Shown: positions 11,893 through 29,560 of the stretch, in pieces
Layout: each line of letters begins with the position of its first letter
How positions within the stretch are numbered: the first letter of the stretch is position 1
From: Phycisphaeraceae bacterium
GTDB taxonomy: Bacteria; Planctomycetota; Phycisphaerae; Phycisphaerales; Phycisphaeraceae
Assembly (NCBI GenBank): GCA_029260635.1
Contig: JAJDCW010000127.1
Coordinates: 1 to 32,502 of the forward strand
Direction of reading: 5' to 3'
Length of the DNA: 32,502 nt
Notes under the pieces: model-generated
Databases searched by the model: none
Told to the model about the DNA's origin: nothing
The model's input: only the letters and a program-made list of their open reading frames with translations
Translations under genes and position numbers: made by a program

Positions 11893-11913
11893 CTGCGGTC
11901 ACTCCGTTGGCTG

Positions 11914-12854: not shown

Positions 12855-14321
12855 ATGGTCAGCTCAGACGGTTACGAAATGACGGCTCGCCAGCGGGCTT
12901 TTCTGGACTCCATCGAGAACGCCCGATACGAACGGGAGATCATCAACGGCCTGAAGCCGTTCTTCAGCAATCACGTCCCGGATGATATGAAGGGCTTCTA
13001 CTCCGCGCAGGAACTTGAAGTCCTCAAGTCCCTCAGCGGCACCGACCGAGACGTCGAAGCCCGCATGCCCGTGAAGGTGACACGGCATTACTTCGACCTG
13101 GCACGGCAGAGCGCATCGCTACAGACTCTGGTTAAAGCCAACCCCGACGAGACGCTGAACCTGGTGGGGTCGGAAGACCCCGGCCATCAGATGGACTTCT
13201 CGCCGGTCGAGGGGCTGCTCCATAAGTACGAGATGGGGCTGCTGTACACCATCTCCACATGCTCATCACACTGCCGGTTCTGCTACCGCGAGGAATTGAT
13301 CGCACGCAAAGATATCGAGCGTCAGGACGGGACGGTTGCCAAGAAGGGTCTGGCCAAGATCAAGGACGTGGTCGCCTACATCAAGTCACACAACAAGAAG
13401 GTAGAAGACAACGGCGGGCTACATCCGACGACCGGGCGGGAGAAACTGCGCGAGATCCTGATGTCCGGCGGCGACGCGATGATGCTCTCCAATAAGAACA
13501 TCGGCGAGTGGCTTTCGTCGCTGGCCGAGGCGGGCGTCGAGGCGATCCGTATGGGCACCAAGGAGATGGCCTTCTACCCCAAGCGGTTTGATGCGACCTT
13601 CCTGTCGATGCTCGACAACTTCCACAAGACCTACCCCGACGTCAGCCTTCGGCTGATGGTCCACTTCAACCACCCCGACGAGTTCCTCCAGAAAGCTCCG
13701 GATGGCGAATACCTGACCAACCCCAACGGCTCGCTGATGTGGCACGAAGACACGCAACGGGCGATGGAGGGCGTCGTTCAGCGTGGCTGGATGCATGTCG
13801 AGAATCAGGCACCGATCATCAAGGGCATCAACGACAACGCCGAGGCACTCCGCATCCTCCAGCGGTCGCTGTACCACAAGGGCATCAACAACCACTACTA
13901 CTTCTGCGGCCGGGATATCGTCGCCTATAAGGCTTTTAACGTGCCGATCGAGACGGCTTGGAACCTGCTGAACGAGTCACAGAAGGGTTTGTCCGGCGTT
14001 GAGGCCCATGCCCGGCTGTCCATCACCCACTACAAGGGCAAGACGGAGGTTGCGGCGGTCACCAGCAAGCCGATCCCCGGCGTGAAGCACGCGGAGAACG
14101 GCGTGCTGATCTTCAAGAACCTGCGCAACGCATTGGACGCCCCGGACCGCGGCAAGACCTGCATCGTGGGACGCAACCCCGAGGCGATCTGGTTCAACGA
14201 CTACGAGGACCGGATCATCTGCGACGAGGTCGGTCTGTTCGACTACAAGCGGGTCGACAACAAACTCCTTAAATGCGACGGGCACTCCCTGAACGTTGTG
14301 CAGCCTACGGGATGCCCTTAA
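12855..14321 (+). CDS. KamA-family radical-SAM aminomutase (substrate unknown)
   Basis: A 488-residue radical SAM protein. The cluster motif CSSHCRFC (Cys136, Cys140, Cys143, CxxxCxxC) follows YTISTCSS, and LMSGGDAMML, RMGTKE and VHFNHPDEF fit the lysine 2,3-aminomutase (KamA/EpmB) barrel. These enzymes use SAM and PLP to move an amino group from C2 to C3. The region ITHYKGKTEVAAV probably holds the PLP lysine. As I recall them, lysine 2,3-aminomutases have a loop VVDAPGGGGK whose Asp recognises lysine; here the sequence goes straight from KGLSGVEAHARLSI to the PLP segment, so the loop appears absent and lysine is an unlikely substrate. The start at 12855 has GAGG six bases upstream; the track start at 12783 lies in the operator region. 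Divergent from the beta-aminotransferase operon. Confidence 0.82.
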   Translation: MVSSDGYEMTARQRAFLDSIENARYEREIINGLKPFFSNHVPDDMKGFYSAQELEVLKSLSGTDRDVEARMPVKVTRHYFDLARQSASLQTLVKANPDETLNLVGSEDPGHQMDFSPVEGLLHKYEMGLLYTISTCSSHCRFCYREELIARKDIERQDGTVAKKGLAKIKDVVAYIKSHNKKVEDNGGLHPTTGREKLREILMSGGDAMMLSNKNIGEWLSSLAEAGVEAIRMGTKEMAFYPKRFDATFLSMLDNFHKTYPDVSLRLMVHFNHPDEFLQKAPDGEYLTNPNGSLMWHEDTQRAMEGVVQRGWMHVENQAPIIKGINDNAEALRILQRSLYHKGINNHYYFCGRDIVAYKAFNVPIETAWNLLNESQKGLSGVEAHARLSITHYKGKTEVAAVTSKPIPGVKHAENGVLIFKNLRNALDAPDRGKTCIVGRNPEAIWFNDYEDRIICDEVGLFDYKRVDNKLLKCDGHSLNVVQPTGCP

Positions 14322-14374: not shown

Positions 14375-16060
14375 ATGCGTGTCCGCTTTGGCGTCCTGGC
14401 TGTTTTGTCATTTCTGTTGATAGCCCCCCCCTGCTCGGTTGCGGAAAGCACCCGATCCGATCGGATGGTCGGGTTTCATATCGATATGAACATGGCCCAG
14501 TACCGGGCGGACTACCTCAAGCGTTGGCTGACGGAGTTGGCGGGCCGGGGCTTCAACACGATCATCTGGGAACTGGAGGATGGCGTTGAATGGCAGACCG
14601 TCCCGGAGGCGCGTCAGCCCGACGCGTTGACCAAGGCACAGTTCCGGGACGTTCTGGACCATGCACGAGAACTTGGGCTTGAAAACATCCCACTATTGCA
14701 GACGCTGGGACACGCTGAGTATGTCCTGGTCCATGAGCGTTACGCGCATCTTAAGGCCAACCCCGAGGACATCCGGCAGTACGACCCGCTTCACCCGGAG
14801 GTGCTGCCGCTGCTAAAGGCGTGGATCGAAGAGTATCTGGACCTGTTCGGCGAGGTCCGTTATTTCCACATCGGCGCGGATGAGGCCCGGCAGCTTGAGT
14901 TCGTCGCGCAAAGTGACCGAAACGTTGAGGGGCTGAGTGTTTCGCAGATATTCATGCGGCATGTCAATGCGGTGTCACAGCCACTGCTAAACAGGGGGAT
15001 CACGCCGATCATCTGGGCCGACATGGTGCTGCACCACCACGAGGCGATCGATGAGTTGTCGCGAGACATCATGCTCTTCGACTGGATGTACGACATCTGG
15101 CGGGGCAATGGGAAGGTGTATCTCTGGGGCGAAAACCGTGGGCTGCGGACGAAGGCGGAACTGACGCCGGGGAACCTGGAACTCTTTGGCAAGTACTTTT
15201 TCCCCGAGGGTGACGGCCCGGATATACAGCCCGAGACTTTCTACTCGGCAGACTTCATGGCCGACAAGGGCTTCGCAGTGGTGACATGTCCGGCTTCCAG
15301 CAGTTACGGCGACAACGTCTTTACGCCCCGACACGAAAGGCACCTGCGTAACACCTGGGACTCGACCGAAAAAGGACTGACGGGGTCGCGCTTAAGAGGC
15401 GCGGTGCTGACCAGTTGGTCCGTCCACCTGCACCCGTGGGAATTGCAGCACGCGCATATCGCAGCAACGGGCTACTTGTCAACGCATCACGGCTCCACGA
15501 TGGATGAATTCCGTTCCTGGTATGTGAATGATACTTTTGGACTTGCTGACGCACGGTTCTGGGAGGCGGCCGAGCTTCTGTCTGAACCGTGCCTTTTCAC
15601 TTACACAAGCTCGCTGGGTTATGGCAAGGCCTGCCTGCCCGTTCCGAAGGACCATGTCGCCGTCACCATCCAAAAGATAAAAGACGAGGGTCGACTCGAT
15701 GCCGAGATTGTGAAGGCCCGACAGCGAATCAATGATTACAACCGTGGCCTGACCTTGTTCAGAGCATTAAGTAAAGAAGTCTCCCGTAATCAAGAACTCA
15801 TAACGACCTGGGAACTGGCTGCAAGCATGTTGATAAACCGTGCCCGCGCGACAGAACTGGTCTTACTTAGTATGCAAAATGACGACAAAGATGCTACGAA
15901 CACCGAAACTGCGGCGGATATCCTCGCCGAGATGCGTACGCTGCGTGATGATTACCAGGCTCTTTACACGCCGATGATCCGTCCCGCGCGTCGTGCACAG
16001 ATGATCGGTTACATGTTCGATGGCATCGAAACAGAGTTGGCCCGCCTCGCCGATCAGTAG
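14375..16060 (+). CDS. Secreted GH20-type glycoside hydrolase
   Basis: A 561-residue protein with a signal peptide (MRVRFGVLAVLSFLLIAPPCSVA, cut before ES). It contains a GH20-like (beta-N-acetylhexosaminidase family) TIM barrel: FHIDMNMAQYRADYLKRWL, RGFNTIIWELEDG, LLQTLGHAEYVL, and the hallmark Asp-Glu catalytic pair FHIGADEA (Asp169-Glu170). Later IIWADMVLHHH and SWSVHLHPWELQ fit the barrel. The last ~180 residues are helical and do not match a carbohydrate-binding domain I know. The usual N-terminal GH20b domain is absent. The ATG at 14375 has GGAG eight bases upstream. It follows the aminomutase by 53 bases, possibly co-transcribed; a functional link is not evident. Substrate is unproven. 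Confidence 0.75.
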   Translation: MRVRFGVLAVLSFLLIAPPCSVAESTRSDRMVGFHIDMNMAQYRADYLKRWLTELAGRGFNTIIWELEDGVEWQTVPEARQPDALTKAQFRDVLDHARELGLENIPLLQTLGHAEYVLVHERYAHLKANPEDIRQYDPLHPEVLPLLKAWIEEYLDLFGEVRYFHIGADEARQLEFVAQSDRNVEGLSVSQIFMRHVNAVSQPLLNRGITPIIWADMVLHHHEAIDELSRDIMLFDWMYDIWRGNGKVYLWGENRGLRTKAELTPGNLELFGKYFFPEGDGPDIQPETFYSADFMADKGFAVVTCPASSSYGDNVFTPRHERHLRNTWDSTEKGLTGSRLRGAVLTSWSVHLHPWELQHAHIAATGYLSTHHGSTMDEFRSWYVNDTFGLADARFWEAAELLSEPCLFTYTSSLGYGKACLPVPKDHVAVTIQKIKDEGRLDAEIVKARQRINDYNRGLTLFRALSKEVSRNQELITTWELAASMLINRARATELVLLSMQNDDKDATNTETAADILAEMRTLRDDYQALYTPMIRPARRAQMIGYMFDGIETELARLADQ

Positions 16061-16070
16061 CGTGCGGTGC

Positions 16071-16691
16071 TCAGGTGAGGTTACGATAATCCTGCGGCGT
16101 GTTGATGTTACGCACGACCGCTGATGAAGCGATTTCAACGGCAACGACAGCCTGTGAGTGCTGGTTAGGGAGTTCGCGAAGTCCGGTATCGCATGCGCCG
16201 GACATGATGAACGGGATGTAAGAAGCGGGGAAGATCATAGGGTGGCCGGTCTTGCCGTTGTGGGCGGCGATGATGATTTTATTGGGGGTATCCAGGAAGG
16301 CTTTGCAGCACTGTTGGATGTCCCCGGTACGTAGGCCGGGCTGGTCGCCGGGGCAGATGAGGATACCGGTATGGGGATCAAGTTCATATCGTTTTTGTAA
16401 GTCTGTAATGCCCAGCCTCACCGAGTCGATCATCTCGGCGTCCGGTTCATCGTTGAGTACGACGCCGACACCTGAAATAGATAAGTCTAGTGTCGAAGCG
16501 ACAAGGCTGTTGGTAACGACGATGGTTGAAGTAACCTGCTCACACGCGACGATCGGCTCGATCACCGCCTGCAACATCGGCTGGCCGTCTACATCTAGCA
16601 GTTGCTTCGGCTGACCCATGCGCGAGGATCGACCGGCGGCGGGGACGACGGCAAACAGACTCCCCTGCGTGTTGATCGGCTGGGAGGTCAT
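16071..16691 (-). CDS. mocA: MobA-like NTP transferase (MocA/YgfJ type)
   Basis: A 206-residue nucleotidyltransferase with VVPAAGRSSRMGQPKQLL (nucleotide-binding loop), a DxVRLGI helix, LICPGDQPGL (metal-binding Asp) and KTGHPMIFPASY. This is the molybdenum cofactor cytidylyltransferase-like family (MocA, YgfJ) that supplies the MCD form of the cofactor to xanthine-dehydrogenase-type enzymes. It starts 27 bases after the stop of the xdhD-like gene, so the two form an operon and the partner is evident. It converges on the GH20 gene with a 10-base gap. Whether it transfers CMP or another nucleotide cannot be read from sequence. Confidence 0.8.
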   Translation of the reverse strand: MTSQPINTQGSLFAVVPAAGRSSRMGQPKQLLDVDGQPMLQAVIEPIVACEQVTSTIVVTNSLVASTLDLSISGVGVVLNDEPDAEMIDSVRLGITDLQKRYELDPHTGILICPGDQPGLRTGDIQQCCKAFLDTPNKIIIAAHNGKTGHPMIFPASYIPFIMSGACDTGLRELPNQHSQAVVAVEIASSAVVRNINTPQDYRNLT

Positions 16692-16718: not shown

Positions 16719-19382
16719 TTATTTGCGTTTTGGTTTAGCGATCGCTTTGCCCGCCGGTGAATCGGTCATCGGTAGCTGTCGGCGGATCACGTGGTCGAAC
16801 TGGTACATCGCGCCTGCGATGGCGGGCGCGGTCGGGACCAGGCCGATCTCGCCAACACCGCGTGCACCGTGGGGGCACTCGGGGTCGGGCTCTTCGATGA
16901 ATATCAGCTCCATCTCAGGCATCTGATGGGCACGCAGCACGCCGCAGTCGTTGATCTTCTCGGCCTTGATGATAGAGCCTTCGACCTCGAAATCTTCTGA
17001 AAGCGCGTAGCCAATGCCCATGTGTAAAGAGCCGTACATCTGACCCTGGAGTTGAACGGGGTTGATGACCTTGCCAACGTCGTGGCAGGCGATCATCTTC
17101 TCCAATGCACCTTCGTCGTCGAGGATTGCGACCTGGGTGGCGAAGCCGTACGTGATGTGCGTCTTCGGCCCGCCGGGCTTATCCATATCCTTGCCGAGCT
17201 TGCTGGTGTAGTCGCAGATCCACTCGCCTTGGAATACCTGGCCGACCAGATCAGATAGCTGCTTGCCCTGATCGAGCGCGGCCTTGAGTCCTTTAGCCGC
17301 CTCGGCGATCGCGTTGCCAGCCAGGACAGTGGCGCGGCTGGCGGTCGTCTGGCCGCAGTCGAGCATCAGCGTGGTGTCGGTCTGACACTCGAAGAGTTCC
17401 GGGGGCAGGCCGGTCGCCTCGTGGGCGAACTGGATGCAGAGGGTGAACATCCCCTGGCCCATCTCAGTGAACCCGGTGCGGATGCGGATGGTGTTTTCAT
17501 CTTCGATGGAGAACGCGGCGCGCCCGATGTCCGGCATGCCGTTGCCGATGCCGACGTTCTTGATGCCGCAGGCGATGCCTGCGTATTTCGCGTTTTTATA
17601 CTGATCCTTGACCGCTTCGAGCGTACGACGCAGCCCAAAAGGTTTATCGAGGACTTGGCCGGTCGCGAAGGCCTCACCTGGCTCGAGGATGTTACGGTCG
17701 CGGATGTCGTAGCCATCGATCCCGCACTTCTCGGCGAGGCGGTCCAGCAAACCCTCAATCGCAAACGCGGCCTGGTTCGCGCCGAAACCACGCATGGCAC
17801 CGCAGGGCGGGTTGTTGGTGTAGACGGCCAACGAACTCATATCGATGTTGGGCACGCGGTACGGGCCGGTACAGTGACCGCCCGCGCGTTCGAGCACCTT
17901 GGCACCGACGGAGGCGTACGCGCCCTTGTCGCCGATGATGTTGGCTTTGACCGCCATGATGTGGCCCTCGGCGTCGCAGCCGATCTTGTAGGTCAGCGTG
18001 ATCGGGTGCCGCTTCACGTGGATGCGGAAGCTCTCGGGCCGGGTGAGCGTCATCTTCACCGGCTTGCCTGAGAGGAAGGCCAGCAGCGAGGTCTGCCCCT
18101 GGATGGACATGTCTTCCTTGCCGCCGAACGCCCCACCGTTGCTAACGAGTTCCACCTCGACACGCTCTTCGCTAAGCCCCAGCATCGACGAGATCTGACG
18201 GCGGTCATCGAAGACACCTTGACCTTGGGTATAAACTTTCAGCCCAGGGCCCGCATCGGTCTCTGTCGGTAAGGCAATACAGGCCTCGGGTTCGAGGAAC
18301 AGGTGCTCGATGTGCTGGGTGTGATAGGTGTCTTCCAGGACGTGGGCGCACTTAGCAAACGCGGCCTCGGCATCGCCCTTGACTAGCTTCGATTCACTCA
18401 GCAGGTTTGTTCCGCGCTCGGGGTGGACCAGCGGCGCATCGGACGCGAGTGCCTTGACCGGGTCGGTGACAGGCTCCTTGACGTTATATTCGACCTCGAT
18501 CAATTCGGCGGCCTTGCGGGCCAGGCGCTGGTCGTCCGCGACGACTGCGGCGATGACGTCGCCGGTGCATCGCGTGTCCTGCCCGATCGCCACAAAGGTC
18601 GGCCAGTCCTTGACGATCAGCCCGACATAGATCTCGCCGGGGACGTCCTTGGCCGTGACGACCTTGTGGACGCCTTCGAGTTCCAACGCTTTGCTCGCGT
18701 CGATCTTCACAACCGTCGCGCGGGGGTGGTCCGCCAGGCGCAGCGCGCCGTAGAGCATGCCCGGGACGGTCATGTCGTCCACGTACTTGCGGTCGCCGAG
18801 CACGGCGTCGTGGCCGGTGTAACGCTTAAGACTGGTCCCGACCTTGCCGGAGCCGTCTGCAGCGGACGTCTCAGGCAAAGCCTCGCCCGCGCGGACCTTG
18901 CTATACAGCTCGATGCTGTCGATGACCTGCTTGTACCCGGTGCATCGGCAGAGGTGCGGACGACAGGCCTTGGTGATCTCGTCACGGCTTGGCGTCGGAT
19001 TACTGTTGCACAGCCCGACGCCCCGCATGGCGAAACCGGGGATGCAGAAGCCGCACTGGACGCCGCCACATTGCACGAAGCTCTCGGAGATCTGATTGCG
19101 GTGCTCCTCGTCCAGCCCTTCGAGAGTTGTGATGGATTTGCCCTCGACCCGGCTTGGCTTCATGGTGCAGGAGAGCATCGGTTTGCCGTCCACCAGGACC
19201 GTGCAGCAGCCGCACTGGGCCTGGGGCTGGCAGCCGTTCTTAGGCGACGTGATCCCCAAACCGTCCCGCAGGACATCCAGCAGGGTCAGCCCATCGTCGG
19301 CGAGATCGACGGACACCGGCTTGCCGTTGACGGTGCAACTTAAAGTCTGAGTGGTAGTAGACATAGAGGATAATGTACTCAT
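16719..19382 (-). CDS. xdhD: XdhD-like molybdenum hydroxylase (2Fe-2S plus Mo domains fused)
   Basis: An 887-residue single-chain molybdenum hydroxylase. The N-terminal part has a plant-type [2Fe-2S] site (GCQPQAQCGCCTVLVDGK, about 50-68) and a second one (CGGVQCGFC and CRPHLCRCTGY). The Mo domain starts at about residue 195 (RYTGHDAVLGDRKYVDD) and contains GGAFGGKED, GAMRGFGANQAAFA, TGFTEMGQGMFT and GARGVGEIGLVP with the catalytic glutamate. No FAD domain is fused or encoded nearby, matching the XdhD arrangement linked to the E. coli yge-ygf cluster. Expected substrate is a purine such as hypoxanthine, xanthine or a related heterocycle; this is inferred. I start at the ATG 19382 (GGAGG nine bases upstream); the track start at 19517 lies in the intergenic region. 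Divergent from ygeY, and followed by mocA. Confidence 0.85.
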   Translation of the reverse strand: MSTLSSMSTTTQTLSCTVNGKPVSVDLADDGLTLLDVLRDGLGITSPKNGCQPQAQCGCCTVLVDGKPMLSCTMKPSRVEGKSITTLEGLDEEHRNQISESFVQCGGVQCGFCIPGFAMRGVGLCNSNPTPSRDEITKACRPHLCRCTGYKQVIDSIELYSKVRAGEALPETSAADGSGKVGTSLKRYTGHDAVLGDRKYVDDMTVPGMLYGALRLADHPRATVVKIDASKALELEGVHKVVTAKDVPGEIYVGLIVKDWPTFVAIGQDTRCTGDVIAAVVADDQRLARKAAELIEVEYNVKEPVTDPVKALASDAPLVHPERGTNLLSESKLVKGDAEAAFAKCAHVLEDTYHTQHIEHLFLEPEACIALPTETDAGPGLKVYTQGQGVFDDRRQISSMLGLSEERVEVELVSNGGAFGGKEDMSIQGQTSLLAFLSGKPVKMTLTRPESFRIHVKRHPITLTYKIGCDAEGHIMAVKANIIGDKGAYASVGAKVLERAGGHCTGPYRVPNIDMSSLAVYTNNPPCGAMRGFGANQAAFAIEGLLDRLAEKCGIDGYDIRDRNILEPGEAFATGQVLDKPFGLRRTLEAVKDQYKNAKYAGIACGIKNVGIGNGMPDIGRAAFSIEDENTIRIRTGFTEMGQGMFTLCIQFAHEATGLPPELFECQTDTTLMLDCGQTTASRATVLAGNAIAEAAKGLKAALDQGKQLSDLVGQVFQGEWICDYTSKLGKDMDKPGGPKTHITYGFATQVAILDDEGALEKMIACHDVGKVINPVQLQGQMYGSLHMGIGYALSEDFEVEGSIIKAEKINDCGVLRAHQMPEMELIFIEEPDPECPHGARGVGEIGLVPTAPAIAGAMYQFDHVIRRQLPMTDSPAGKAIAKPKRK

Positions 19383-19542
19383 AACGTTTGGCCTCCGCGC
19401 GGCTTCTAAGCCCGCGATCCCGGTTTTCGTGTTTAACCGGTGGCCAACTCGTGCCCGGCTTCGCCGGACTATCCTTCCACCAATCGTCATTGTCGCCGGT
19501 ATAGCGTAAATCACCAAGAGAAAAGTACGAGAATATTTCGCT

Positions 19543-19570
19543 TTGTGACATCGGGCTTGTCGTGTATAAA
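19543..19570 (+). promoter_or_regulatory. Candidate promoter of ygeY (near-leaderless)
   Basis: TTGTGA (19543-19548) and TATAAA (19565-19570) with a 16-base spacer. The start site would fall near 19577, a few bases before the ATG at 19580, so the mRNA would be leaderless or nearly so. This argues against the track's GTG start at 19562. Confidence 0.45.
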
Positions 19571-19579
19571 GACATATCT

Positions 19580-20839
19580 ATGCCAAAAACCTCCCCGTTC
19601 GTTTCCCAAGCCGAAAAATATAAACCCAAAATGATCCGCTTTTTGCGGGACATGATCGCTATCCCCTCGGAATCCGCCGAGGAGGGCAAGGTTATCGCCC
19701 GCATCAAGCAGGAACTCAAGGCCACCGGGGCCTACGACAAGATCTGGACCGACAAGATGGGCAACCTCTTCGGGCAGATCGGCAAGCCCGGCAAGGGCAA
19801 GAAGCTGATCGCCATCGATGCCCACGTCGACACCGTCGGCGTCGGGGACCGCTCGGAGTGGAAGCACGACCCCTACCAGGGCAAGGTCGCGGATGGCAAG
19901 GTCTGGGGCCGGGGCGCCGGCGACCAGGAAGGCGCGATCCCAGCGATGGTCTACGCTGGCAAGATCATGCGTGACCTGAAGCTGAACCTCTCCGAGTACT
20001 ACGTCCTGCTGACCTTCACCGTGATGGAGGAAGACTGTGACGGGCTCTGCTGGCAGTACATCGTCAACGAGGGCAAGATCAAGCCCGACGCCGTGGTCGT
20101 GACCGACTCGACCAACTGCTGGATCCTCCGTGGCCACCGCGGGCGGATGGAGATCGGCGTGACCGCCAAGGGCAAGAGCTGCCACGGCTCGATGCCCGAG
20201 AAAGGCGACAACGCGATCTACAAGATCGCCAAGGTCACCAACGAGATCGAAAAACTCAACAAGCGGCTCAAGGCTGACAAGTTCCTGGGCAAGGGGACGA
20301 TCACCGTCAGCTACGTCGACTGCAAGACCCCCAGCATGTGTGCCGTGCCCGGCGAAGCGTTTATCCACCTTGACCGCCGCCTGACAGTGGGCGACACAAA
20401 AACCTCGGCCGTGAAGGAAGTCAAAGACGCGGTCAAGCGGGCCGGGGTGAAAGCCAAGGTCGAGGTGCTGCGCTACGCACGCCCCAGCTACACCGGCTTA
20501 ACATACGAAACCGAAAAGTACTTCCCCACCTGGTGCGAAGACGAGGACGACTTGCAGATCCAGGCCGCGATCAAGAACCACCGTGATGTGCTGGGTGCCG
20601 CCCCGACGCTGCACCGCTGGACGTTCAGCACCAACGGCGTCTCCATCGCCGGGATGTATGGCATCCCCTGCGTCGGGTTCGGGCCGGCTCCCGAAAACGT
20701 CGCCCACACCGTCAACGACTCCGTCCCGATCGACCACCTGGTCAAGTGCGCCGCGTTCTACGCCGGCTTCGGCCAGTCCTACTGCGATCTGGCACACAAA
20801 CGACCCAACGACACCAATATGAACGTCAAGCGAAGATAA
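19580..20839 (+). CDS. ygeY: YgeY-type M20 family hydrolase
   Basis: A 419-residue M20 metallopeptidase-like enzyme. From memory it aligns closely with E. coli YgeY: MIRFLRDMIAIPSESAEEGK, IAIDAHVDTVGVGD (metal His/Asp), GRGAGDQEGAIPAMVYAGKI, EEDCDGLCWQYI, HRGRMEIGVTAKGKSCHGS, WTFSTNGVSIAGMYGIP and GFGPAPE. The YgeY family is linked to anaerobic purine/urate breakdown, where it is thought to act on an open-ring amide or ureido intermediate; the exact reaction is not established here. The GTG at 19562 would add six residues but lies before the likely transcription start; ATG 19580 gives MPKTSPFVSQAEKYKPKM. It is the first gene of a ygeY-ygeW-arcC string, with 58 bases to ygeW. Confidence 0.9.
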   Translation: MPKTSPFVSQAEKYKPKMIRFLRDMIAIPSESAEEGKVIARIKQELKATGAYDKIWTDKMGNLFGQIGKPGKGKKLIAIDAHVDTVGVGDRSEWKHDPYQGKVADGKVWGRGAGDQEGAIPAMVYAGKIMRDLKLNLSEYYVLLTFTVMEEDCDGLCWQYIVNEGKIKPDAVVVTDSTNCWILRGHRGRMEIGVTAKGKSCHGSMPEKGDNAIYKIAKVTNEIEKLNKRLKADKFLGKGTITVSYVDCKTPSMCAVPGEAFIHLDRRLTVGDTKTSAVKEVKDAVKRAGVKAKVEVLRYARPSYTGLTYETEKYFPTWCEDEDDLQIQAAIKNHRDVLGAAPTLHRWTFSTNGVSIAGMYGIPCVGFGPAPENVAHTVNDSVPIDHLVKCAAFYAGFGQSYCDLAHKRPNDTNMNVKRR

Positions 20840-20897: not shown

Positions 20898-21935
20898 ATG
20901 ACCGTGAGCCTCAAAGGAAAGAACTACATCGAGACCCAGGACCTGAGCCTGGACGAATTGAACCTGCTGCTGGAGACCTCGGACGAGCTGAAAGCCAAGT
21001 TCCACCGGGGCGAGCCGACCGTGGTCCTGAATAACCAGACGGCTTACCTGCTGTTCTTCGATAAATCGACAAGGACGCGTAACGCTTTCGAGGCCGGGAT
21101 GACTCAGCTAGGCGGGCATGCCCACTTCCTGGACGCCGACGTCACTCAGATCAGCCACGGCGAGACCCCCGCCGACACCGGCAAGATCCTCGCGGCGATG
21201 GGCCACGGCATCTGCGTCCGTCACGACCTGGTCCTGGACGAGGGCAACAAGTACATGCGCGAGATGGCCGCGGCTTGCAACGTCCCGATCATCAACATGC
21301 AATGCGATGTCGACCACCCGACGCAGACGCTGGCCGACATCATGACCATCCGAGAACACTTCGGGAAAGACAATGTCGCGGGCCTGAAGATCGCGGTCAC
21401 ATGGGCGTTCGCCCCCAGCTACGCCAAGCCGTTGAGTGTCCCGCAGGGTTTGATCACGCTGATGACCCGGTTCGGGATGCACGTCTCGCTGGCCCACCCC
21501 GAGGGCTATAACCTGATCGAGCGCACCGTCGAGTCCGCCAGGTCCAACGCCAAGGCATCCGGCGGATCGTTCGAGATCGTGGACGATATGGACGCCGCCT
21601 TCGCCGATGCGGATATCGTGTACCCCAAGAGCTGGGGCGTCTACGACCTGATGCTCGAGCGTCAGAACGCGACCACCAAGGCAGAGATCGACGCCAACCA
21701 GCTGGCTTGTCTGGAGATGAACCACAAGCACAAGGACTGGATCTGCGACGAGCGTCGGATGAAGCTCGCCAAGGACTCGGCCGTCTACATGCACTGCCGC
21801 CCCGCCGACCGGGATGCGGAAGTCACCGACGCCGTGATCGACGGCCCGCAGTCGATCGTCTTCCAGGAGGCCGAGAACCGCCTGCACACCGCCAAAGCCA
21901 TCATGTCCTGCACGATGCGCGAACGGCCGTTCTAA
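20898..21935 (+). CDS. ygeW: YgeW-type knotted carbamoyltransferase
   Basis: A 345-residue aspartate/ornithine carbamoyltransferase-family protein. It has the carbamoyl-phosphate motif STRTR (about 57-61), GGHAHFLDAD, the DVDHPTQTLADIMTIREHF segment, TWAFAPSYAKPLSVPQGL and MHCRPADRD (about 298-305). The combination with an unusual central insertion matches YgeW, an orphan transcarbamylase of the yge cluster, rather than OTC or ATC. In that pathway YgeW is believed to phosphorolyse or form a carbamoylated amino acid such as one related to 2,3-diaminopropionate, yielding carbamoyl phosphate for a carbamate kinase. Substrate is inferred. It is followed by a carbamate kinase after a terminator-like hairpin. 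Confidence 0.9.
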   Translation: MTVSLKGKNYIETQDLSLDELNLLLETSDELKAKFHRGEPTVVLNNQTAYLLFFDKSTRTRNAFEAGMTQLGGHAHFLDADVTQISHGETPADTGKILAAMGHGICVRHDLVLDEGNKYMREMAAACNVPIINMQCDVDHPTQTLADIMTIREHFGKDNVAGLKIAVTWAFAPSYAKPLSVPQGLITLMTRFGMHVSLAHPEGYNLIERTVESARSNAKASGGSFEIVDDMDAAFADADIVYPKSWGVYDLMLERQNATTKAEIDANQLACLEMNHKHKDWICDERRMKLAKDSAVYMHCRPADRDAEVTDAVIDGPQSIVFQEAENRLHTAKAIMSCTMRERPF

Positions 21936-22000: not shown

Positions 22001-22960
22001 ATGGGAAAGGCCGGACCAACCGTCATCGCTCTGGGGGGCAACGCGATCAGCGTGCCCGGGGAGCAGGGGAACATCCCCCAGCAGTTCGCGCACATGTCCG
22101 ATACCGCGCGGTACCTGACGGACGCCATCGCGGGTGGCCGGCACGTCGTCCTGACCCACGGCAACGGCCCGCAGGTCGGCAACGTCCTGCGCCGCGTCGA
22201 GCTGGCGTCGTCGGAGATGTACCCCCTGCCGTTGGAGGTCTGTGTGGCCGACACGCAGGCGGGGATGGGCTACATGATCGGGCAGTGCATGATCAATGCG
22301 CTTAAGAAACGCGGGATCGAGACCGATGTCACGACGCTGGTGACCAACGTCCTGATCGACCAGGACGACGCCGCATTCAAACGACCGACCAAGCCGATCG
22401 GCTCGCAGATGTCCAAAGCCCAGGCCGAGGCCCACCGGGACAACGATGGCTGGTCGATCACGGAAGTCGCGGAAGGCATCTACCGGCGGATCGTCCCGTC
22501 GCCGATCCCTCAGGAAATCATCGAGCTGAACACCATCCAACGGCTCGTCGAGGATGGCGAGCTGGTCATCTGCTGCGGCGGAGGCGGCGTGCCGGTGGTC
22601 CGCGATGAACTCGGGATGCTGCGAGGGGCGGCCGCGGTGATCGACAAGGACCGCACCTCCGCCCTGCTCGCCAAGGAACTGAACGCCGAGGCGTTGGTGA
22701 TCCTCACCGCCGTGGAACGCGTCTGCCTGAACTTCGGCAAGCCGGATCAGAAGACCCTGGACACCCTGACCGTCACCGAGGCGAAGACCTACCTGAAAGA
22801 CGGCCACTTCGCCGAGGGCTCGATGAAGCCGAAGGTCGAGGCCGCGGTGGATTTCGTGGAAGGGTCAACCAGCCCCGACGTCGTAGCAATCATTGCGGAG
22901 TTGAGCCGATTGAGTGATGCGCTTGAGGGGAAGAGTGGGACGCGGATAACGCGAAGTTGA
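22001..22960 (+). CDS. arcC: Carbamate kinase
   Basis: A 319-residue amino-acid-kinase-fold protein. It shows IALGGNAI, VLTHGNGPQVGN, the PTKPIGSQMSKAQAEA loop, VPSPIP-type RRIVPSPIPQEI, CCGGGGVPV, IDKDRTSALLA and a C-terminal GSMKPKVEA. These are typical of carbamate kinases (ArcC/YqeA). It makes ATP from ADP and carbamoyl phosphate, releasing ammonia and CO2. Paired with the upstream transcarbamylase this is the energy-conserving end of a carbamoyl-phosphate-generating pathway. Length fits the family. Confidence 0.93.
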   Translation: MGKAGPTVIALGGNAISVPGEQGNIPQQFAHMSDTARYLTDAIAGGRHVVLTHGNGPQVGNVLRRVELASSEMYPLPLEVCVADTQAGMGYMIGQCMINALKKRGIETDVTTLVTNVLIDQDDAAFKRPTKPIGSQMSKAQAEAHRDNDGWSITEVAEGIYRRIVPSPIPQEIIELNTIQRLVEDGELVICCGGGGVPVVRDELGMLRGAAAVIDKDRTSALLAKELNAEALVILTAVERVCLNFGKPDQKTLDTLTVTEAKTYLKDGHFAEGSMKPKVEAAVDFVEGSTSPDVVAIIAELSRLSDALEGKSGTRITRS

Positions 22961-23240: not shown

Positions 23241-24560
23241 TTACTCGCACGGAATCTCACCCATCCGCTCATGCAGCGCACGGGAAACCTCCACGCTCTT
23301 CCCCCGGACTTCGGCTTCGTCGCAACTCACCACTTCCCCGCCTCGTAGTTTCCAGTCGCCGCCGATCATGACGTCGGAGACAAACTCGGGGCCCATGGCG
23401 TAGATGAGGTGGCCGGCGAGGTTGTCGGCGCTCAGCGGGGTCGCCGGGGTGTACTTCGTCAGCACGAGGTCGGCTTCGGCGCCGGGTTCCAGGACGCCGA
23501 GTTTGACGCCCAGGGCCTTTGAGGCGTAGCGGGCGGATTCGCCGATCATGGCGAGCGGTCGGCCGAACGGCAGCGGGATGTCGCCATCATGGCTCTTGAA
23601 CTGTGCGGTGCGGGCCTCGCGCCACATGTCGGCCCCGATGCCGTCGGTCCCGAGCATCGGGGGTCGGTCGAACCGGGCGACCGGAGCGTAGCCGACGGCG
23701 TTGTTCATGTTCGAGTTAGTGTTGTGGGCCATCGTGATGGTGTCACGCTCGTTGATCGCCTGGATATCGGCGTCGCTTAGGTGCGTGCCGTGGGCGAAGA
23801 TGGTGTCTGGATGATCCAGCAGGCCGTGCTCCTTGAAACGGTCGAACAGGGTCTGCCCGTAGCCTGCCTGGGTCATCGCTTCATCGCAGCCATCCTCGGC
23901 GACGTGGATGTGTATACCGACCTGTAATTCCTTGGCGAACGAGACGCAGGCCGCCAGGGACTTTTCGTTGAGGGTGAAGCTGGCGTGTGCGCCGACCATC
24001 CCGGCGAACCGGCCGTTGTTGCGTTTCTTGCAGAGGACGACGAAGCGTTCGTTCTCATCAAGGCCACGCAGGGCCTCGTTCTTATGATTGCGGTCGGTGG
24101 CTTCGTAGCAGAGGACGCCCCGGCAGCCGGCTTGGGCGATCCCGCCTTCCAGATCAGACAGGCTGCCCTCAATCGCGTTGGGCGAGGCGTGGTGGTCAAT
24201 CAGCGTCGTTGTGCCGCAACGCAGCGCGGCCAGCGCGCCGACGACCCCGCTGGTACGGATGCTCTCCACATCATGAGCGAGGTCCAGCCGCCACCAGACA
24301 TACTTAAGAATCTCAAAAAAGTTGGTCGGCGTCTTGGGCGGCGCGGGCATCCCCGCGGCGAGGGCGGAGTACAAGTGAGTGTGCCCGTTGACCAGGCCTG
24401 GCATAAGGACCGCCCCGCCGCAATCGATCATCTCGTCGCCCTGCTCGGGGGTGATGTCTCCCACCGCGACGATCTTGCCATCCACCACGTGGAGGTTGCC
24501 CTGCTGGACCATCGGCGGGTCGAGCTGGACGAGGGTCGCGTTGGTGAAGCAGGTGCCCAT
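23241..24560 (-). CDS. ssnA: SsnA-type amidohydrolase
   Basis: A 439-residue amidohydrolase of the chlorohydrolase/ATZ-TRZ type. Metal ligands are visible in order: NGHTHLYSAL (HxH), HIHVAEDG, FAHGTHL and LGTDGIGADM. SsnA is part of the E. coli yge-ygf cluster and is implicated in purine-derived compound breakdown, likely deaminating or opening a ring; the precise substrate is unknown. It follows the PLP enzyme gene on the same strand with a 60-base gap that contains a perfect 7-bp inverted repeat (24608-24625). No Shine-Dalgarno precedes the ATG at 24560. Confidence 0.88.
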   Translation of the reverse strand: MGTCFTNATLVQLDPPMVQQGNLHVVDGKIVAVGDITPEQGDEMIDCGGAVLMPGLVNGHTHLYSALAAGMPAPPKTPTNFFEILKYVWWRLDLAHDVESIRTSGVVGALAALRCGTTTLIDHHASPNAIEGSLSDLEGGIAQAGCRGVLCYEATDRNHKNEALRGLDENERFVVLCKKRNNGRFAGMVGAHASFTLNEKSLAACVSFAKELQVGIHIHVAEDGCDEAMTQAGYGQTLFDRFKEHGLLDHPDTIFAHGTHLSDADIQAINERDTITMAHNTNSNMNNAVGYAPVARFDRPPMLGTDGIGADMWREARTAQFKSHDGDIPLPFGRPLAMIGESARYASKALGVKLGVLEPGAEADLVLTKYTPATPLSADNLAGHLIYAMGPEFVSDVMIGGDWKLRGGEVVSCDEAEVRGKSVEVSRALHERMGEIPCE

Positions 24561-24607: not shown

Positions 24608-24625
24608 TGTGATAGTTATATCACA
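24608..24625. promoter_or_regulatory. Perfect 7-bp inverted repeat upstream of ssnA
   Basis: TGTGATA-GTTA-TATCACA, overlapping the PLP gene stop and 48 bases upstream of ssnA. The ends TGTGA/TCACA resemble CRP-type half-sites, but the spacer is 8 rather than the usual 6. It can be an operator or an RNA hairpin; no T-run follows on the minus strand. Confidence 0.45.
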
Positions 24626-26072
24626 GAAGATCGAGGACGCCGGTCTGCTGGTTGAATCCTTCGATCAGGGTATCCCATTCATCGACCTGGGCGAAGGTCT
24701 TCGTCCAGAAGTCCGGGTCCCAGAGCTCGTTGAGTTCTTCGATGGTTCGGCCCTGCTGCTCAACCCAGGTGAAGTACTTGAAGTTGTGAAGGGCCTTGCG
24801 GTCTGCGTAGTTCAGCTCACGCACGTGGTCGGTGACGATCCCGTCCAGGTAGCGGGCGCGGTCGGCGATGGCCTGGTCACGGGTGTAGGCCCCGCGTTCT
24901 TCGGTGAGCTCGGCGAGCCGGCTGCCGTAGAGTTCCGACGAGTCGGTCAGGCAGGTGAAGATGACATCCTTGCCGTTCATGTCGTAGTGCTGCGCGGTCT
25001 TGATCGCGGCGGCCAGGTTGCAGATGCAGGAGATGCCCAGCAAGGGCAGCTGGTCAACGAGTTCACCGGGCAGCGTGGATTTCAGGTATTCCTGGCCCGC
25101 GGGCTCGTTGAACAGACGTAACAGCGACATGCATTGCTCATCATCGATCGCTGAGATCATGTCGGTGTTTCGGACGTTGTGGACCCATGGGACGTGCTTG
25201 TCGCCGATGCCCTCGATGCGGTGCCCGCCGAAGCCGAACTGGTAGAGCGTCGGGCATTGCAGGGCTTCGGTGGCGACAACGCGCACCCCCGGATGCAAGG
25301 TTCGTAAATAATCCCCGGCGGCGATGGTTCCCGCGCTGCCGGTGGCTGAAACGTAACCTGCCAGGCGTTTATCGTCGCCGAGTGTCTCGAAAACCTCCTG
25401 GATGATGGAGCCGGTGACGTGGTAATGCCAGGTCGGGTTCCCGAATTCTTCGAACTGGTTGAAGATCACGCACTCGGGGCGGGTATTGCGGATCTCCCAG
25501 CACTTGTCGTAGATCTCTTTGACGTTGGACTCGCAGCCGGGGGTCGCGATGACCTCCGAGCAGATGCCGTTGAGCCAGTCGAAGCGTTCCTTACTCATTT
25601 CTTCGGGGAGGATGGCGACCGCGTCACAGCCCAGCAGCGCCGAGTCGAACGCGCCACCACGGCAGTAGTTGCCGGTGCTGGGCCAGACCGCCTTGTTCTG
25701 GGTGGTGTCGAATTCACCGGTGACGAGGCGCGGGGCCAGGCAGCCGTAGGCCGCGCCGACCTTGTGTGCGCCGGTTGGGAAGTACTTGCCGACGATCCCG
25801 ATGATGGTGGCGTCCACGCCTGTCATCTCCGGCGGGAAGACGACGTAGTTGCCATTGTTGTAGAGGCCGCCCTTCTCGGTCGGTTCGTTCTTCCAGCTGA
25901 TGCGGAACAGGTTTATGGGGTCGACATCCCATAGCCCGACCTGCTTAAGCCGGTCCTTGACCTTATCGGGGACAAGCCCGGGATCGCGCATCTGCGCGAA
26001 GGTCGGCAGCAGGACCTTGCGATCGCGGCACTGGTTTACGGTTCGATCTAATACGTCCTGATTCACCTTCAT
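24621..26072 (-). CDS. Fold-type II PLP enzyme (TrpB/cystathionine-synthase-like, no standard name)
   Basis: A 483-residue PLP enzyme. The motif TGAHKVGAAYG is the PLP lysine (compare GAHK in tryptophan synthase beta), PSTGNYCRGGA is the phosphate/substrate loop, SATGSAGTIAAGDYL follows, and there is a long C-terminal extension (about 110 residues) not seen in small cysteine synthases. It is not a normal YgeX: the diaminopropionate ammonia-lyase motifs I know are missing. It starts at the ATG 26072 (GGAGCAAATTG upstream); the upstream gene's stop overlaps by one base (TGATG). It lies in the yge-like cluster, between ssnA and a threonine-synthase-like gene, where ygeX would be expected. It may eliminate or lyse an amino acid of the pathway; this is inferred. 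Confidence 0.75.
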   Translation of the reverse strand: MKVNQDVLDRTVNQCRDRKVLLPTFAQMRDPGLVPDKVKDRLKQVGLWDVDPINLFRISWKNEPTEKGGLYNNGNYVVFPPEMTGVDATIIGIVGKYFPTGAHKVGAAYGCLAPRLVTGEFDTTQNKAVWPSTGNYCRGGAFDSALLGCDAVAILPEEMSKERFDWLNGICSEVIATPGCESNVKEIYDKCWEIRNTRPECVIFNQFEEFGNPTWHYHVTGSIIQEVFETLGDDKRLAGYVSATGSAGTIAAGDYLRTLHPGVRVVATEALQCPTLYQFGFGGHRIEGIGDKHVPWVHNVRNTDMISAIDDEQCMSLLRLFNEPAGQEYLKSTLPGELVDQLPLLGISCICNLAAAIKTAQHYDMNGKDVIFTCLTDSSELYGSRLAELTEERGAYTRDQAIADRARYLDGIVTDHVRELNYADRKALHNFKYFTWVEQQGRTIEELNELWDPDFWTKTFAQVDEWDTLIEGFNQQTGVLDLL

Positions 26073-27373
26073 CAATTTGCTCCGTCCAATACACCCCGGA
26101 CACCCCGGACACCCCGGACACCCCGGATACCCCGGGGTTCTAATGCGTTTGCGAGGCTGTCCATATCGGGTTTGATGCTGATCGGTTTGCCGCCTGCCTG
26201 GATGGCGGCTTTGGTGTCCTTCAATCCGCTGCCGGTGACCATGCTCAGGACCCGGTCGTTGGCCGAGATCACGTCGACTTCCCGGGCGGCCATGACCCCC
26301 GCCAAAGCTGCGGCGGCCGCGGGTTCTGCATAGATGCCGTGCCGCCCGCCGAGCTTCATCGCGTCGAGTATCTGGTGGTCGTCCACACAGACCAGCACGC
26401 CGTCGGCTTCCTTCAGTGCGTTGACCGCCTTGCGCCAGTTGCGGGGGACCGGGACGTTGATGCTGTCGGCGATGGTCCCGCCGTCCTGGAGTTTGTCCGG
26501 TAGTTTGCCGTGCTCAAGGACGTACCCGATCGGAGCGACGCCGTCGGCCTGCACGCCCAGCAGGCGAGGCAGGCGGTCGATCTGGCCTAGCTGGTGCATC
26601 TGCTTTAAGCCCTTCCAGATGCCAGCCACCGTGCAGCCATCCCCGACGCTGACCGCGACCCAGTCGGGCACCCCGCCGAAGCTGTGGGACTGTTCTGCGA
26701 TCTCCAACCCGCCGGTTTTCTTACCCTCGACCAGTACGGGGTTGATTGCGCAGTTGCGGTTGTACCAGCCGAACTTCGTGCAGGCCGCCGAGCAGAGGTT
26801 GTAGGCCTCGTCGTAGCTGCCTTGCACGGCGACGACATGGGCTCCGTAGACCAGCAGTTGGGCGAGTTTGGGCTGCGGCGCGGTTCGGGGGACAAAGATG
26901 ACGCAGGGCATGCCCGCCAGTGCGGCGTGGCCTGCGAGGCTGGTCGCGGCGTTGCCGGTCGAGGCGCAGGCGATGGTGCTGGCTTTGCACTGCAAAGCAT
27001 GGGCGACGCCCACCGAGCTTGCGCGGTCTTTGAAGCTGGCGGTGGGATTCCGGCCGTCGTCTTTGAAAAGCAGCTGCTTGAGGCCCAGCTCACCGGCGAG
27101 CCGTTGCGTGTCGATCACCGGGGTCCAGCCGACCTGCCAGTCTTCGCGGATACTCGATTCGGCCAGCGGCAGCAGCTCGCGGTATCGCCAATGGTTCAAC
27201 GCTCGGCCGTGCAGGGGGTTTTCCTGCCAGGCGTGACGGACGGCATCAAGGTCAAAGTTGATGTCCACAATACCCTCATCGGGGCCGCAGTCTTCACACG
27301 CAATCCAGGGCTTGTCCGCCCCGTAGGTTCGGCCGCAAGCCACGCATGTCAGGCCTGTGATAAATCTGCTCAT
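26072..27373 (-). CDS. Threonine-synthase-like fold-type II PLP enzyme with N-terminal zinc ribbon
   Basis: A 433-residue PLP enzyme. It starts with a zinc ribbon (CVACGRTYG...CEDCG), then the PLP lysine motif NPTASFKDRASSV, a phosphate loop STGNAATSLAGHAAL, VGDGCTVAGIWKG and SGLKD near the end. This resembles threonine synthase and related archaeal-type enzymes. It overlaps the next PLP gene by one base and both are on the minus strand, so the two are translationally coupled. The C-terminus carries a (RGV)n repeat encoded by an in-frame 9-bp minisatellite (26092-26138). A normal role in threonine synthesis is possible, but the location in the cluster suggests a catabolic partner function (inferred). 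Divergent from ygfK across about 160 bases. Confidence 0.75.
   Translation of the reverse strand: MSRFITGLTCVACGRTYGADKPWIACEDCGPDEGIVDINFDLDAVRHAWQENPLHGRALNHWRYRELLPLAESSIREDWQVGWTPVIDTQRLAGELGLKQLLFKDDGRNPTASFKDRASSVGVAHALQCKASTIACASTGNAATSLAGHAALAGMPCVIFVPRTAPQPKLAQLLVYGAHVVAVQGSYDEAYNLCSAACTKFGWYNRNCAINPVLVEGKKTGGLEIAEQSHSFGGVPDWVAVSVGDGCTVAGIWKGLKQMHQLGQIDRLPRLLGVQADGVAPIGYVLEHGKLPDKLQDGGTIADSINVPVPRNWRKAVNALKEADGVLVCVDDHQILDAMKLGGRHGIYAEPAAAAALAGVMAAREVDVISANDRVLSMVTGSGLKDTKAAIQAGGKPISIKPDMDSLANALEPRGIRGVRGVRGVRGVLDGAN
26092..26138. repeat. In-frame 9-bp tandem repeat in the threonine-synthase-like gene
   Basis: Unit CACCCCGGA repeats four times plus a partial copy (26092-26127 exact, then a diverged TACCCCGGG). 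Read on the coding strand it encodes Arg-Gly-Val units near the C-terminus, so changes in copy number keep the frame. Confidence 0.8.
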
Positions 27374-27532: not shown

Positions 27533-29560
27533 ATGGTAGACCTTTACTGCTCCCCTTTCGTGGACCTGATCGACCGCATGCGTCTGGAATACCAGACCCG
27601 GTCGAGCATGTTCGACCTGCCCGCCAAGAAGTGGTTCCACCCCTCGGCAGACCCGGATGCGCCGGACCTTTCAACCACGTTCCACGGCCGACCCGCGGGC
27701 AACCCCGTTGGCCCGGCCGCCGGGCCGCAGACGCAGATGGCTCAAAATCTGGTCCTGGCGTACCTGGCGGGGTCGCGGATCTTCGAGCTGAAGACCGTGC
27801 AGATCAACGACCGGCTTGAGATACCCCGGCCCTGTATCGACGCGACGAACATCGGCTACAACGTCGAGTGGTCCCAGGAACTCTTGCTGCACGAATCTCT
27901 GGATCAGTACGTCCAGGGGTGGATGCTTTTGCACATGCTCCGGCAGAGCCCGGAGACGTTTGGCAATCCGTTTAGCGATTCACCCATCGCTGGCCCAGCG
28001 GGCGATTTCCTGTTCGATATGTCCGTCGGGTACGACCTCAAGGGCATCCAATCGGACACAGTCCGACGGTTCCTTAGCGGGATGCTGGACGCCTCCAAAG
28101 ACATCGAAGCACTCAAGGCCCTGCTGCCCGACCGGTTAATGCACCTGCGCGATCTGGATTACCCGTCAGCCCTGAGCAGCAGCATCACGCTCTCGACATT
28201 CCACGGTTGCCCGGCCGACGAGATCGAACGCATATGCGAATTCCTGCTCACCGAAATCGGCGTCGACGTCATCGTGAAGATGAACCCCCCGATGCTCGGC
28301 GCCGAGCGGCTGGAGTACCTGCTGCACGACGTGATGGGGTATCACGAAGTCACGGTCAACCCCGAGGCCTACACCAGCGGGCTCTTGTTCGATGAATCGA
28401 TCGAGATATGCAGGCGGCTGGACACACTGGCGAAAGCCAACGGACGTTCGTTTGGGGCGAAGTTCTCAAACACGCTGGAAGTGGTCAATCACAAGGATTT
28501 TTTCACCCCGGATAACAAGGTGATGTACCTGTCCGGGCCGCCGCTGCATGTCATCACGCTGACGCTGGCGGCCGAGTTCCGCAAAGTCATGGGTCACGCC
28601 ATGCCGATCACCTTTTCCGCGGGTGTGGACCGCAAGAACTTCCCGAACATGGTGGCCTGCGGCTTCAAACCGATCACGACCTGTACCGACCTCTTAAAAC
28701 CCGGCGGCTACGGCCGACTGCCCGGCTACCTCGGCGACCTGACCGCAGGGATGACCAAACTCGGCGCGAAGACGATCGATGAGTTCATCCTCAAAGCAAA
28801 CAGTCACGGAGACGAAGCGGGTGGCGACCCGGTTCTGGCGGGCTTCCTGAACATGGCGGACATCGTCAAGGAAACCCAGGCCGACCCACGCTACACCCAG
28901 GCGAAGAACCAGATGGTGCCCAAGCGGATCAACTCGCACCTGGTGGTCTTCGATTGCGTAACCTGCAACAAGTGCATCCCGGTCTGCCCGAACGACGCAA
29001 ACTTCTTGTACGAAACACCGAAGGTTGACCTGTTGTATCGGGATATCGCGGTGCAACCGGACGGGACCATTAAAGAGGTGGGTGAAGAGAAGGAATTCAA
29101 GGTCGAACGCACCGAGCAGATCGCGAACTTCGCGGACTATTGCAACCACTGCGGCAACTGCGACACGTTCTGCCCGGAGTACGATGGGCCTTACATCAAG
29201 AAGCCGAGTTTCTTTGGCAGCCTCAAGGCGTTTGAGGACGGGGCTCCGCACGACGGGTTTTATGTGGATGCCCAGGGCGAGAGGTATGCGTTACTGGGCC
29301 GAATGGATGGCGTGGCGTGCAGGCTTGACAGCCTGGACGAGGCGGGCAAGTCGTACGAGTATGACGATGGCGTCGTGACGCTGATTATTGAGGATGGACG
29401 CCCGACCGAACTGGCTGGATTGTGCTCCGGTCAGCCGCACCCCCCGCACATTGTCGATCTTGGACGATTCCATACGCTCGCCGTACTCCTAAACAGTATC
29501 ACCAGCTCCTCTCGGGTCCATCAGGTCAACGCCCCACTGGTCGCTTCCGGAGCGCCCTAG
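27533..29560 (+). CDS. ygfK: Short YgfK-like iron-sulfur protein (no FAD/NAD(P)H module)
   Basis: A 675-residue protein. The first ~450 residues are the YgfK N-terminal module: NPVGPAAGPQTQMAQN, ELKTVQINDRLEIPRPCID, ATNIGYNVEWSQEL, TLSTFHGCPADEIERIC, GAKFSNTLEV, TDLLKPGGYGRL. This is a dihydroorotate-dehydrogenase-like TIM barrel. Two ferredoxin-type [4Fe-4S] sets follow, C475/C478/C481/C485 and C537/C540/C543/C547. E. coli YgfK, about 1030 residues as I recall, has in between a flavin and pyridine-nucleotide domain related to glutamate synthase small subunit; here that module is missing, so electrons must come from another partner. The label 'selenate reductase' for this family is weakly grounded. 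Start ATG 27533, no Shine-Dalgarno. Divergent from the PLP genes. Confidence 0.82.
   Translation: MVDLYCSPFVDLIDRMRLEYQTRSSMFDLPAKKWFHPSADPDAPDLSTTFHGRPAGNPVGPAAGPQTQMAQNLVLAYLAGSRIFELKTVQINDRLEIPRPCIDATNIGYNVEWSQELLLHESLDQYVQGWMLLHMLRQSPETFGNPFSDSPIAGPAGDFLFDMSVGYDLKGIQSDTVRRFLSGMLDASKDIEALKALLPDRLMHLRDLDYPSALSSSITLSTFHGCPADEIERICEFLLTEIGVDVIVKMNPPMLGAERLEYLLHDVMGYHEVTVNPEAYTSGLLFDESIEICRRLDTLAKANGRSFGAKFSNTLEVVNHKDFFTPDNKVMYLSGPPLHVITLTLAAEFRKVMGHAMPITFSAGVDRKNFPNMVACGFKPITTCTDLLKPGGYGRLPGYLGDLTAGMTKLGAKTIDEFILKANSHGDEAGGDPVLAGFLNMADIVKETQADPRYTQAKNQMVPKRINSHLVVFDCVTCNKCIPVCPNDANFLYETPKVDLLYRDIAVQPDGTIKEVGEEKEFKVERTEQIANFADYCNHCGNCDTFCPEYDGPYIKKPSFFGSLKAFEDGAPHDGFYVDAQGERYALLGRMDGVACRLDSLDEAGKSYEYDDGVVTLIIEDGRPTELAGLCSGQPHPPHIVDLGRFHTLAVLLNSITSSSRVHQVNAPLVASGAP

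Follow-up and report, generated by a model that had tools for sequence, protein, structure and literature searches.

The reductive uric-acid pathway was established in 2025 in Escherichia coli and two clostridia. In E. coli, uric acid is converted to 2,8-dioxopurine by XdhD and a second reduction is carried out by YgfK; SsnA and HyuA open the rings, YgeW and YgeY remove the two carbamoyl groups, and YgeX takes the last step, from 2,3-diaminopropionate to pyruvate (Li et al., PMC12507026). Percudani (PMC12990295) names as open both the stereochemistry and the sequence in which the ureido groups are removed. The gene cluster first entered the literature as a selenium-dependent molybdenum hydroxylase set, in which a role in selenium insertion was assigned to yqeB and yqeC (PMC2276186). 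Here we analyze such a cluster on a contig from an uncultured Phycisphaeraceae bacterium (assembly GCA_029260635.1, contig JAJDCW010000127.1; G000:C127 in our numbering of genomes and contigs). The whole contig, 32,502 nucleotides, is referred to as the window, and the draft genome is 3.9 Mb and ~92% complete. Where ygeX is expected, the cluster carries genes for two fold-type II pyridoxal phosphate (PLP) enzymes, which we call PLP1 and PLP2.

The E. coli cluster (xdhD-ygfM, ygfK, ssnA, hyuA, ygeW, yqeA, ygeY, and ygeX; PMC12507026) and the window have in common a xanthine dehydrogenase of the selenium-dependent family (XDH), YgfK, SsnA, YgeW, YgeY, and carbamate kinase. Unlike E. coli, the organism has a shorter YgfK and two other PLP enzymes; we found no ygeX in its genome, the window contains no hyuA, and nothing in the E. 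coli cluster corresponds to PLP1. We estimate a probability of about 55% that PLP2 substitutes for YgeX and PLP1 is an added, separate enzyme of the pathway. The finding is a variant of a known pathway with an uncharacterized enzyme family at its core, and literature searches turned up no earlier description of PLP1.

PLP2 (26072..27373, minus strand) has 433 residues and PLP1 (24621..26072, minus strand) has 483 from its ATG start; the mechanical TTG start of PLP1 is at 26075. The stop codon of PLP2 and the start codon of PLP1 have one base in common (TGATG; 26072..26074, minus strand; gcaaatTGATGaag), and translation of the two genes is likely coupled, judging from this arrangement. The original prediction, made from the DNA alone, had described two coupled fold-type II genes with a one-base overlap in an ssnA/ygfK cluster, and both reading frames, the overlap, and the neighbors proved correct. 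The proteins match PF00291 (PALP) above its 35-bit cut-off, PLP1 at 61 bits and PLP2 at 237 bits. Active-site motifs, including the glycine-rich phosphate loop, are complete in both, and the PLP lysines (TGAHK in PLP1, SFKDR in PLP2) are invariant in the family alignments. A comparison of the PLP1 and PLP2 profiles gave only 3%. Since both pass PF00291, the survey of Li et al., in which any PF00291 protein near SsnA was colored as YgeX (PMC12507026), could not tell PLP1, PLP2, and YgeX apart.

The draft genome contains nine PALP matches: PLP1, PLP2, a threonine ammonia-lyase, another threonine dehydratase, a cysteine synthase, a relative of D-cysteine desulfhydrase/CuyA, a partial TrpB, and threonine-synthase-like proteins on contigs C263 and C98. 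None of the nine is YgeX, and a YgeX hidden elsewhere in the genome, which the original prediction had named beforehand as speaking against it, was rejected on this count. The C98 protein, cut by a contig end, is a canonical threonine synthase (ThrC) with the motif NPFRLEGQK. PLP2 has lost this motif and is not the organism's only threonine-synthase-like gene, so that the second condition named beforehand, PLP2 being the only threonine synthase, did not appear either; with a canonical ThrC on C98, we rejected PLP2 as its threonine synthase. The C263 protein (L007:1207-2541) is a third threonine-synthase-like protein, also without the canonical NPxRxEGQK, and its relatives, at 33-36% identity to PLP2, are frequent in those members of the class that have no PLP1.

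The threonine-synthase likeness and the zinc ribbon of the original prediction hold for PLP2, a threonine-synthase paralogue with the ribbon (CxxC...CxxC) at its N terminus: it matches the threonine synthase profile TIGR00260, and C10, C13, C26, and C29 are invariant in 24 of 24 PLP2 proteins from several phyla. Its scores fall below the cut-offs of PRK08197, another threonine synthase profile (276.4 bits; cut-off 303), and of the YgeX profile NF006058 (48.3 bits; cut-off 276). The closest solved relatives are ThrC proteins (PDB 2zsj, 6cgq, 2d1f, and 1uim), which have the SFKDR PLP lysine and the STGN loop in common with PLP2. They carry NSVNPxRxEGQKT and VGNAGN, whereas the window PLP2 has AINPxLxEGKKT and VGDGCT, a change of NPxRxEGQK to NPxLxEGKK. 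In every phylum sampled, the SVNPxRxEGQKT and STGNT of ThrC have become EGKK and STGNA in PLP2, the Arg being replaced by Leu or Thr, and in L063 and L085 the Pro of the motif is changed as well; SVNPxRxEGQKT is kept in three solved ThrC proteins and in the ThrC on C98. The Ser and Arg that PLP2 has lost presumably bind the phosphate of the ThrC substrate. PLP2 forms a single clade (Shimodaira-Hasegawa-like approximate likelihood ratio test, 96), separate from five ThrC sequences. It has the fold type of YgeX and a distant likeness to it (98.5% probability in a profile comparison). All ten YgeX proteins compared have a DGNHG loop containing Asp120, whereas PLP2 has STGNA there, PLP1 has STGNY, and PLP2 differs further in having the zinc ribbon. 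A short tandem repeat (RGIRGVRGVRGVRGV) at the end of the window PLP2 (26085-26125) is missing from the other aligned PLP2 proteins.

PLP1 combines a CBS/CysK-like core (motif FPTGAHKVGA) with an extra N-terminal segment and a C-terminal extension of ~100 residues. Its nearest kin by sequence and by predicted fold (predicted local distance difference test score, 83) are cysteine synthase and CBS, with which it shares the GSAGT loop and the EGIG and TDS..LY motifs. Identity to this family is ~20-25% and reaches about 26% at most, and the scores lie far below the curated cut-offs for CysK (97.7 against 351 bits), CBS (72.2 against 510), and CysKM (90.1 against 344); the YgeX profile NF006058 was not listed at E ≤ 0.001. 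The TrpB/cystathionine-synthase likeness originally predicted stands as a weak one, closest to CysK/CBS and below family cut-offs. The C-terminal extension, for which the prediction could name no family, is kept across the whole PLP1 family, and no solved chain aligns with it. The window PLP1 is most similar to proteins of metagenome-assembled genomes from Planctomycetota/Phycisphaeraceae (87 and 85% identity). Several Phycisphaerae have in-frame insertions at one PLP1 loop (around residue 234), consisting of a GC-rich palindromic repeat (GAGCCGCGGGCTTCAGCCCGCGCGG; L060:850-2349, L065:9126-10673, L067:8885-10465, and L068:8928-10457). The repeat recurs at other sites in the loci examined, and PLP2 of L065 and L068 also has extra in-frame segments.

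We searched each of 298 genomes of the class for PLP1, PLP2, SsnA, and YgeX. PLP1 is present in 30 (E ≤ 1e-100, with the next matches at ~1e-20), and PLP2 in the identical 30 (at least 315 bits and at least 44% identity; next, 229 bits and 39%). SsnA (E ≤ 1e-75) was found in 27 genomes, all within the 30, and in a 28th of them (G118) as a copy split over two contig ends; it is in none of the other genomes of the class. SsnA is missing from two PLP1 genomes, both incomplete: G216 (87% complete) and G127 (86%). The YgeX family occurs in 2 of the 298 genomes and in none of the 30. The pairing of PLP1 and PLP2 is far beyond chance. For co-occurrence in the class, Fisher p is ~1e-37, a descriptive value uncorrected for genome relatedness. 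The 30 genomes span seven families, several of which mostly lack PLP1, PLP2, and SsnA, and the three genes lie on separate contigs in G022 (C1, C7, and C10), G148 (C27, C9, and C16), G188, and G245.

We also compared 80 PLP1 loci from other genomes; beyond the class, PLP1/PLP2 operons of the pathway occur in several other phyla. The gene order is YgfK-SsnA-XDH-PLP1-YgeY-YgeW-carbamate kinase-PLP2 in Gammaproteobacteria, XDH-PLP2-PLP1-YgeY-YgeW in KSB1, and PLP1-YgeY-YgeW-carbamate kinase-PLP2 in Elusimicrobia. In Bacteroidales it is YgfK-PLP1-PLP2-XDH-SsnA; HyuA and an Lrp-type regulator are frequently included, and PLP1 and PLP2 are adjacent on the same strand. An SsnA-family match (E ≤ 1e-40) is present in 75 of 78 PLP1 genomes, even where PLP1 stands alone; the weakest of the 75, in the genome of L101, is a contig-end fragment. 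Two other sets of neighbors were rejected as functional hints: the surroundings of PLP1 in Elusimicrobia, which are housekeeping genes in genomes that, where checked, have SsnA elsewhere, and, on the same grounds, a D-aminoacyl-tRNA-deacylase-like neighbor in six Phycisphaerae loci. A role of PLP1 as substitute for YgeW, YgeY, HyuA, SsnA, YgfK, or XDH was also rejected, each of these being found beside PLP1 somewhere.

YgeX is present in 9 of 48 PLP1 genomes from outside the class, six of them without PLP2. Of 22 further PLP1 genomes with no PLP2 nearby, 19 have it elsewhere. YgeX stands beside PLP1 in the place of PLP2 in L142, L144 (carbamate kinase-YgeW-YgeY-YgeX-PLP1), and L121; in L142 (YgfK-PLP1-YgeX) its position is exactly that of PLP2 in the YgfK-PLP1-PLP2 of relatives. 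This occurrence of YgeX without PLP2 in six genomes, once exactly at the position of PLP2, suggests that PLP2 is a YgeX substitute. We covered a second class with 142 genomes around the Aminicenantes genome G330; there, PLP1 is found in 23 of 24 SsnA genomes, and 20 of the 23 also have YgeX. PLP1 thus accompanies YgeX too, and we rejected the idea that it is required only alongside PLP2. DGNHG (Asp120) and the PLP lysine are intact in each of the nine YgeX proteins that we examined from PLP1 genomes. This pattern argues that PLP1 is neither half of the YgeX reaction nor an obvious racemase.

A PLP1 subfamily (51-58% identity) occurs in relatives of Aminicenantes within the second class that lack SsnA. 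In six of its loci, PLP1 comes immediately after a gene resembling arginine:glycine amidinotransferase (E 3e-82 to a solved enzyme of that name), and most of the six also contain an Lrp-type regulator (L193:8875-12315, L197, L198, L202, L204, and L206); peptidase-like genes and a D-aminoacylase-like amidohydrolase are also nearby. One further locus has PLP1 behind ornithine carbamoyltransferase, and in L207 a PLP1 of the same subfamily lies in the operon HyuA-PLP1-SsnA-XDH-YgeX. What the PLP1 contexts seem to have in common is diamino acids, along with the carbamoyl or amidino derivatives of these.

On the reading we favor, the pathway would run from uric acid through 2,8-dioxopurine, ureidomethyl-hydantoin, 2,3-diureidopropionate, and 2,3-diaminopropionate to pyruvate, with PLP1 and PLP2 acting at the amino-acid end. 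PLP2 would be a 2,3-diaminopropionate ammonia-lyase, giving aminoacrylate by α,β-elimination and then pyruvate and two ammonia. This genomic assignment of PLP2 as functional YgeX substitute is the firmer of the two and is probably right. PLP1 could carry out C-N chemistry at the β-carbon of 2,3-diaminopropionate or of albizziin, the monocarbamoyl form, by an elimination or replacement of the aminoacrylate type, and the "different intermediate" of the original prediction may now apply to this enzyme. Membership of PLP1 in the pathway is well supported, its chemistry weakly, and the specific reaction is a best guess that we expect to be wrong rather oftener than right. Several observations weigh against this picture. 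PLP2 scores 186.5 bits against TIGR00260, above the cut-off of 167.1. PLP2 and YgeX occur together in three PLP1 genomes, and neither is found in three others (G301, G312, and G321). The known steps are all covered by other genes, leaving no gap that points to a PLP1 reaction, and the subfamily in SsnA-less genomes means that the PLP1 family is not exclusive to the uric-acid pathway. HyuA (hydantoinase) was not found in the window, to which the search in this genome was confined; it is present in several PLP1 loci of other genomes.

Among other explanations, PLP1 might be a racemase that turns D- into L-2,3-diaminopropionate (or albizziin) for an L-specific PLP2, a service not needed by YgeX, which takes both isomers. 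The known pathway seems to pass through D-configured intermediates (PMC12507026, PMC12990295), and YgeX accepts D and L; in the class, none of the 30 PLP2 genomes lacks PLP1. PLP2 is probably L-specific, with STGNA where YgeX has DGNHG, whose Asp120 we take to be the base for D-isomers. A racemase would be redundant with YgeX, yet PLP1 is kept in all 20 second-class genomes that have both SsnA and YgeX, the YgeX from PLP1 genomes keeps Asp120 and the PLP lysine in nine of nine cases, and the core of PLP1 is of the CBS/CysK type rather than serine-racemase-like. We consider this explanation unlikely. Very improbable is the original suggestion that the pair, perhaps as a heteromer, performs the single YgeX reaction in two parts. 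The TGATG overlap, the same-strand adjacency in Bacteroidales, and the identical distribution in the class would fit it, but against it stand the genomes in which PLP1 is paired with a genuine YgeX and no PLP2 (the six above) and the 20 of 20 second-class genomes just mentioned; moreover, PLP1 and PLP2 are unlinked in several genomes, and each has its own complete set of active-site motifs.

We give equally little credence to an accidental position in the cluster, which would make PLP2 a true threonine synthase or a threonine/serine dehydratase and leave PLP1 as an ordinary enzyme of amino-acid metabolism. The TIGR00260 match and the unrelated surroundings in which PLP1 sometimes stands would agree with this, but co-occurrence with SsnA is exact in two classes, unlinked copies included, no PLP2 retains the threonine-synthase motif, and the genome already has its canonical ThrC and two threonine dehydratases. 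That PLP1 serves the selenium- and molybdenum-dependent XDH, perhaps by delivering selenium, instead of the C3 end of the pathway seems just as improbable. Selenide is handled by CysK-like enzymes, XDH is present in 35 of the 80 PLP1 loci, and selenium figures in the first description of the cluster; against this, many PLP1 genes immediately adjoin YgeW or YgeY and have no XDH in the vicinity (for example, L042, L057, L083, and L094), and selenium insertion is already assigned to yqeB and yqeC.

The remaining cluster genes fit a reductive uric-acid locus, with SsnA, XDH, YgfK, YgeW, and YgeY all within 16.7-29.6 kb of the window. Downstream of PLP1 is an SsnA-like aminohydrolase (23241..24560, minus strand; TIGR03314, 375.9 bits; 40% identity to E. 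coli SsnA). On the plus strand are YgeY, an M20 hydrolase (19562..20839; 49% to E. coli YgeY, above the curated cut-off); a YgeW-type carbamoyltransferase of 345 residues (20898..21935; 43% to E. coli YgeW), of a shorter subfamily than the E. coli protein; and a carbamate kinase of the YqeA/ArcC type (22001..22960; profile match). Two YgeW-type genes are present per locus in L113, L116, L125, L054, and L060, as if phosphorolysis removed both ureido groups. The YgfK-like reductase (27533..29560, plus strand; 675 residues) covers the N-terminal ~400 residues and an Fe-S region of E. coli YgfK and lacks most of its C-terminal half. YgfK is 650-730 residues long in the window and other Phycisphaerae, ~1090 in Bacteroidales, and 1032 in E. 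coli; the short form suggests a different electron donor. XDH, a Mo/Fe-S fusion (16719..19517, minus strand; TIGR03311, 941 bits, above the cut-off), probably starts ~60 codons inside this reading frame and is followed by a MocA/YgfJ-like molybdenum cofactor cytidylyltransferase (16071..16691, minus strand; profile match).

Elsewhere in the window, positions 9287-12750 encode 3-oxoadipate-type CoA-transferase subunits, a PcaF thiolase, and an RpiR-type regulator, with an aminotransferase beyond (7972-9411). A product weakly similar to KamA-family radical SAM aminomutases, with no Pfam match (12783-14321), adjoins a GH20-like protein (14375-16060). A predicted tRNA-Arg (tcg; 5344-5416, minus strand) falls inside the 5' part of a DUF4434 reading frame (4145-5485), so that either the start of that frame or the tRNA call may be wrong.

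The data indicate that the end of the pathway differs in Phycisphaerae, Bacteroidota, Elusimicrobiota, Aminicenantes, and some Gammaproteobacteria. There, a threonine-synthase paralogue often stands in for YgeX, and PLP1, an uncharacterized enzyme, is added always or nearly always. A survey based on PF00291 merges three different enzymes under YgeX. PLP1 could be the founder of an enzyme family for a new reaction of anaerobic purine catabolism, one that acts on 2,3-diaminopropionate or ureido derivatives of it and is absent from the pathway as published. Apart from enterobacteria and clostridia, most lineages would need this step regardless of which lyase ends the pathway, and the family would have a second use beside the amidinotransferase; we hold this tentatively, at somewhat less than even odds. 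PLP1 and PLP2 would act at the end of the pathway, the part that the field's stated questions on stereochemistry and on the sequence of ureido removal concern (PMC12990295).

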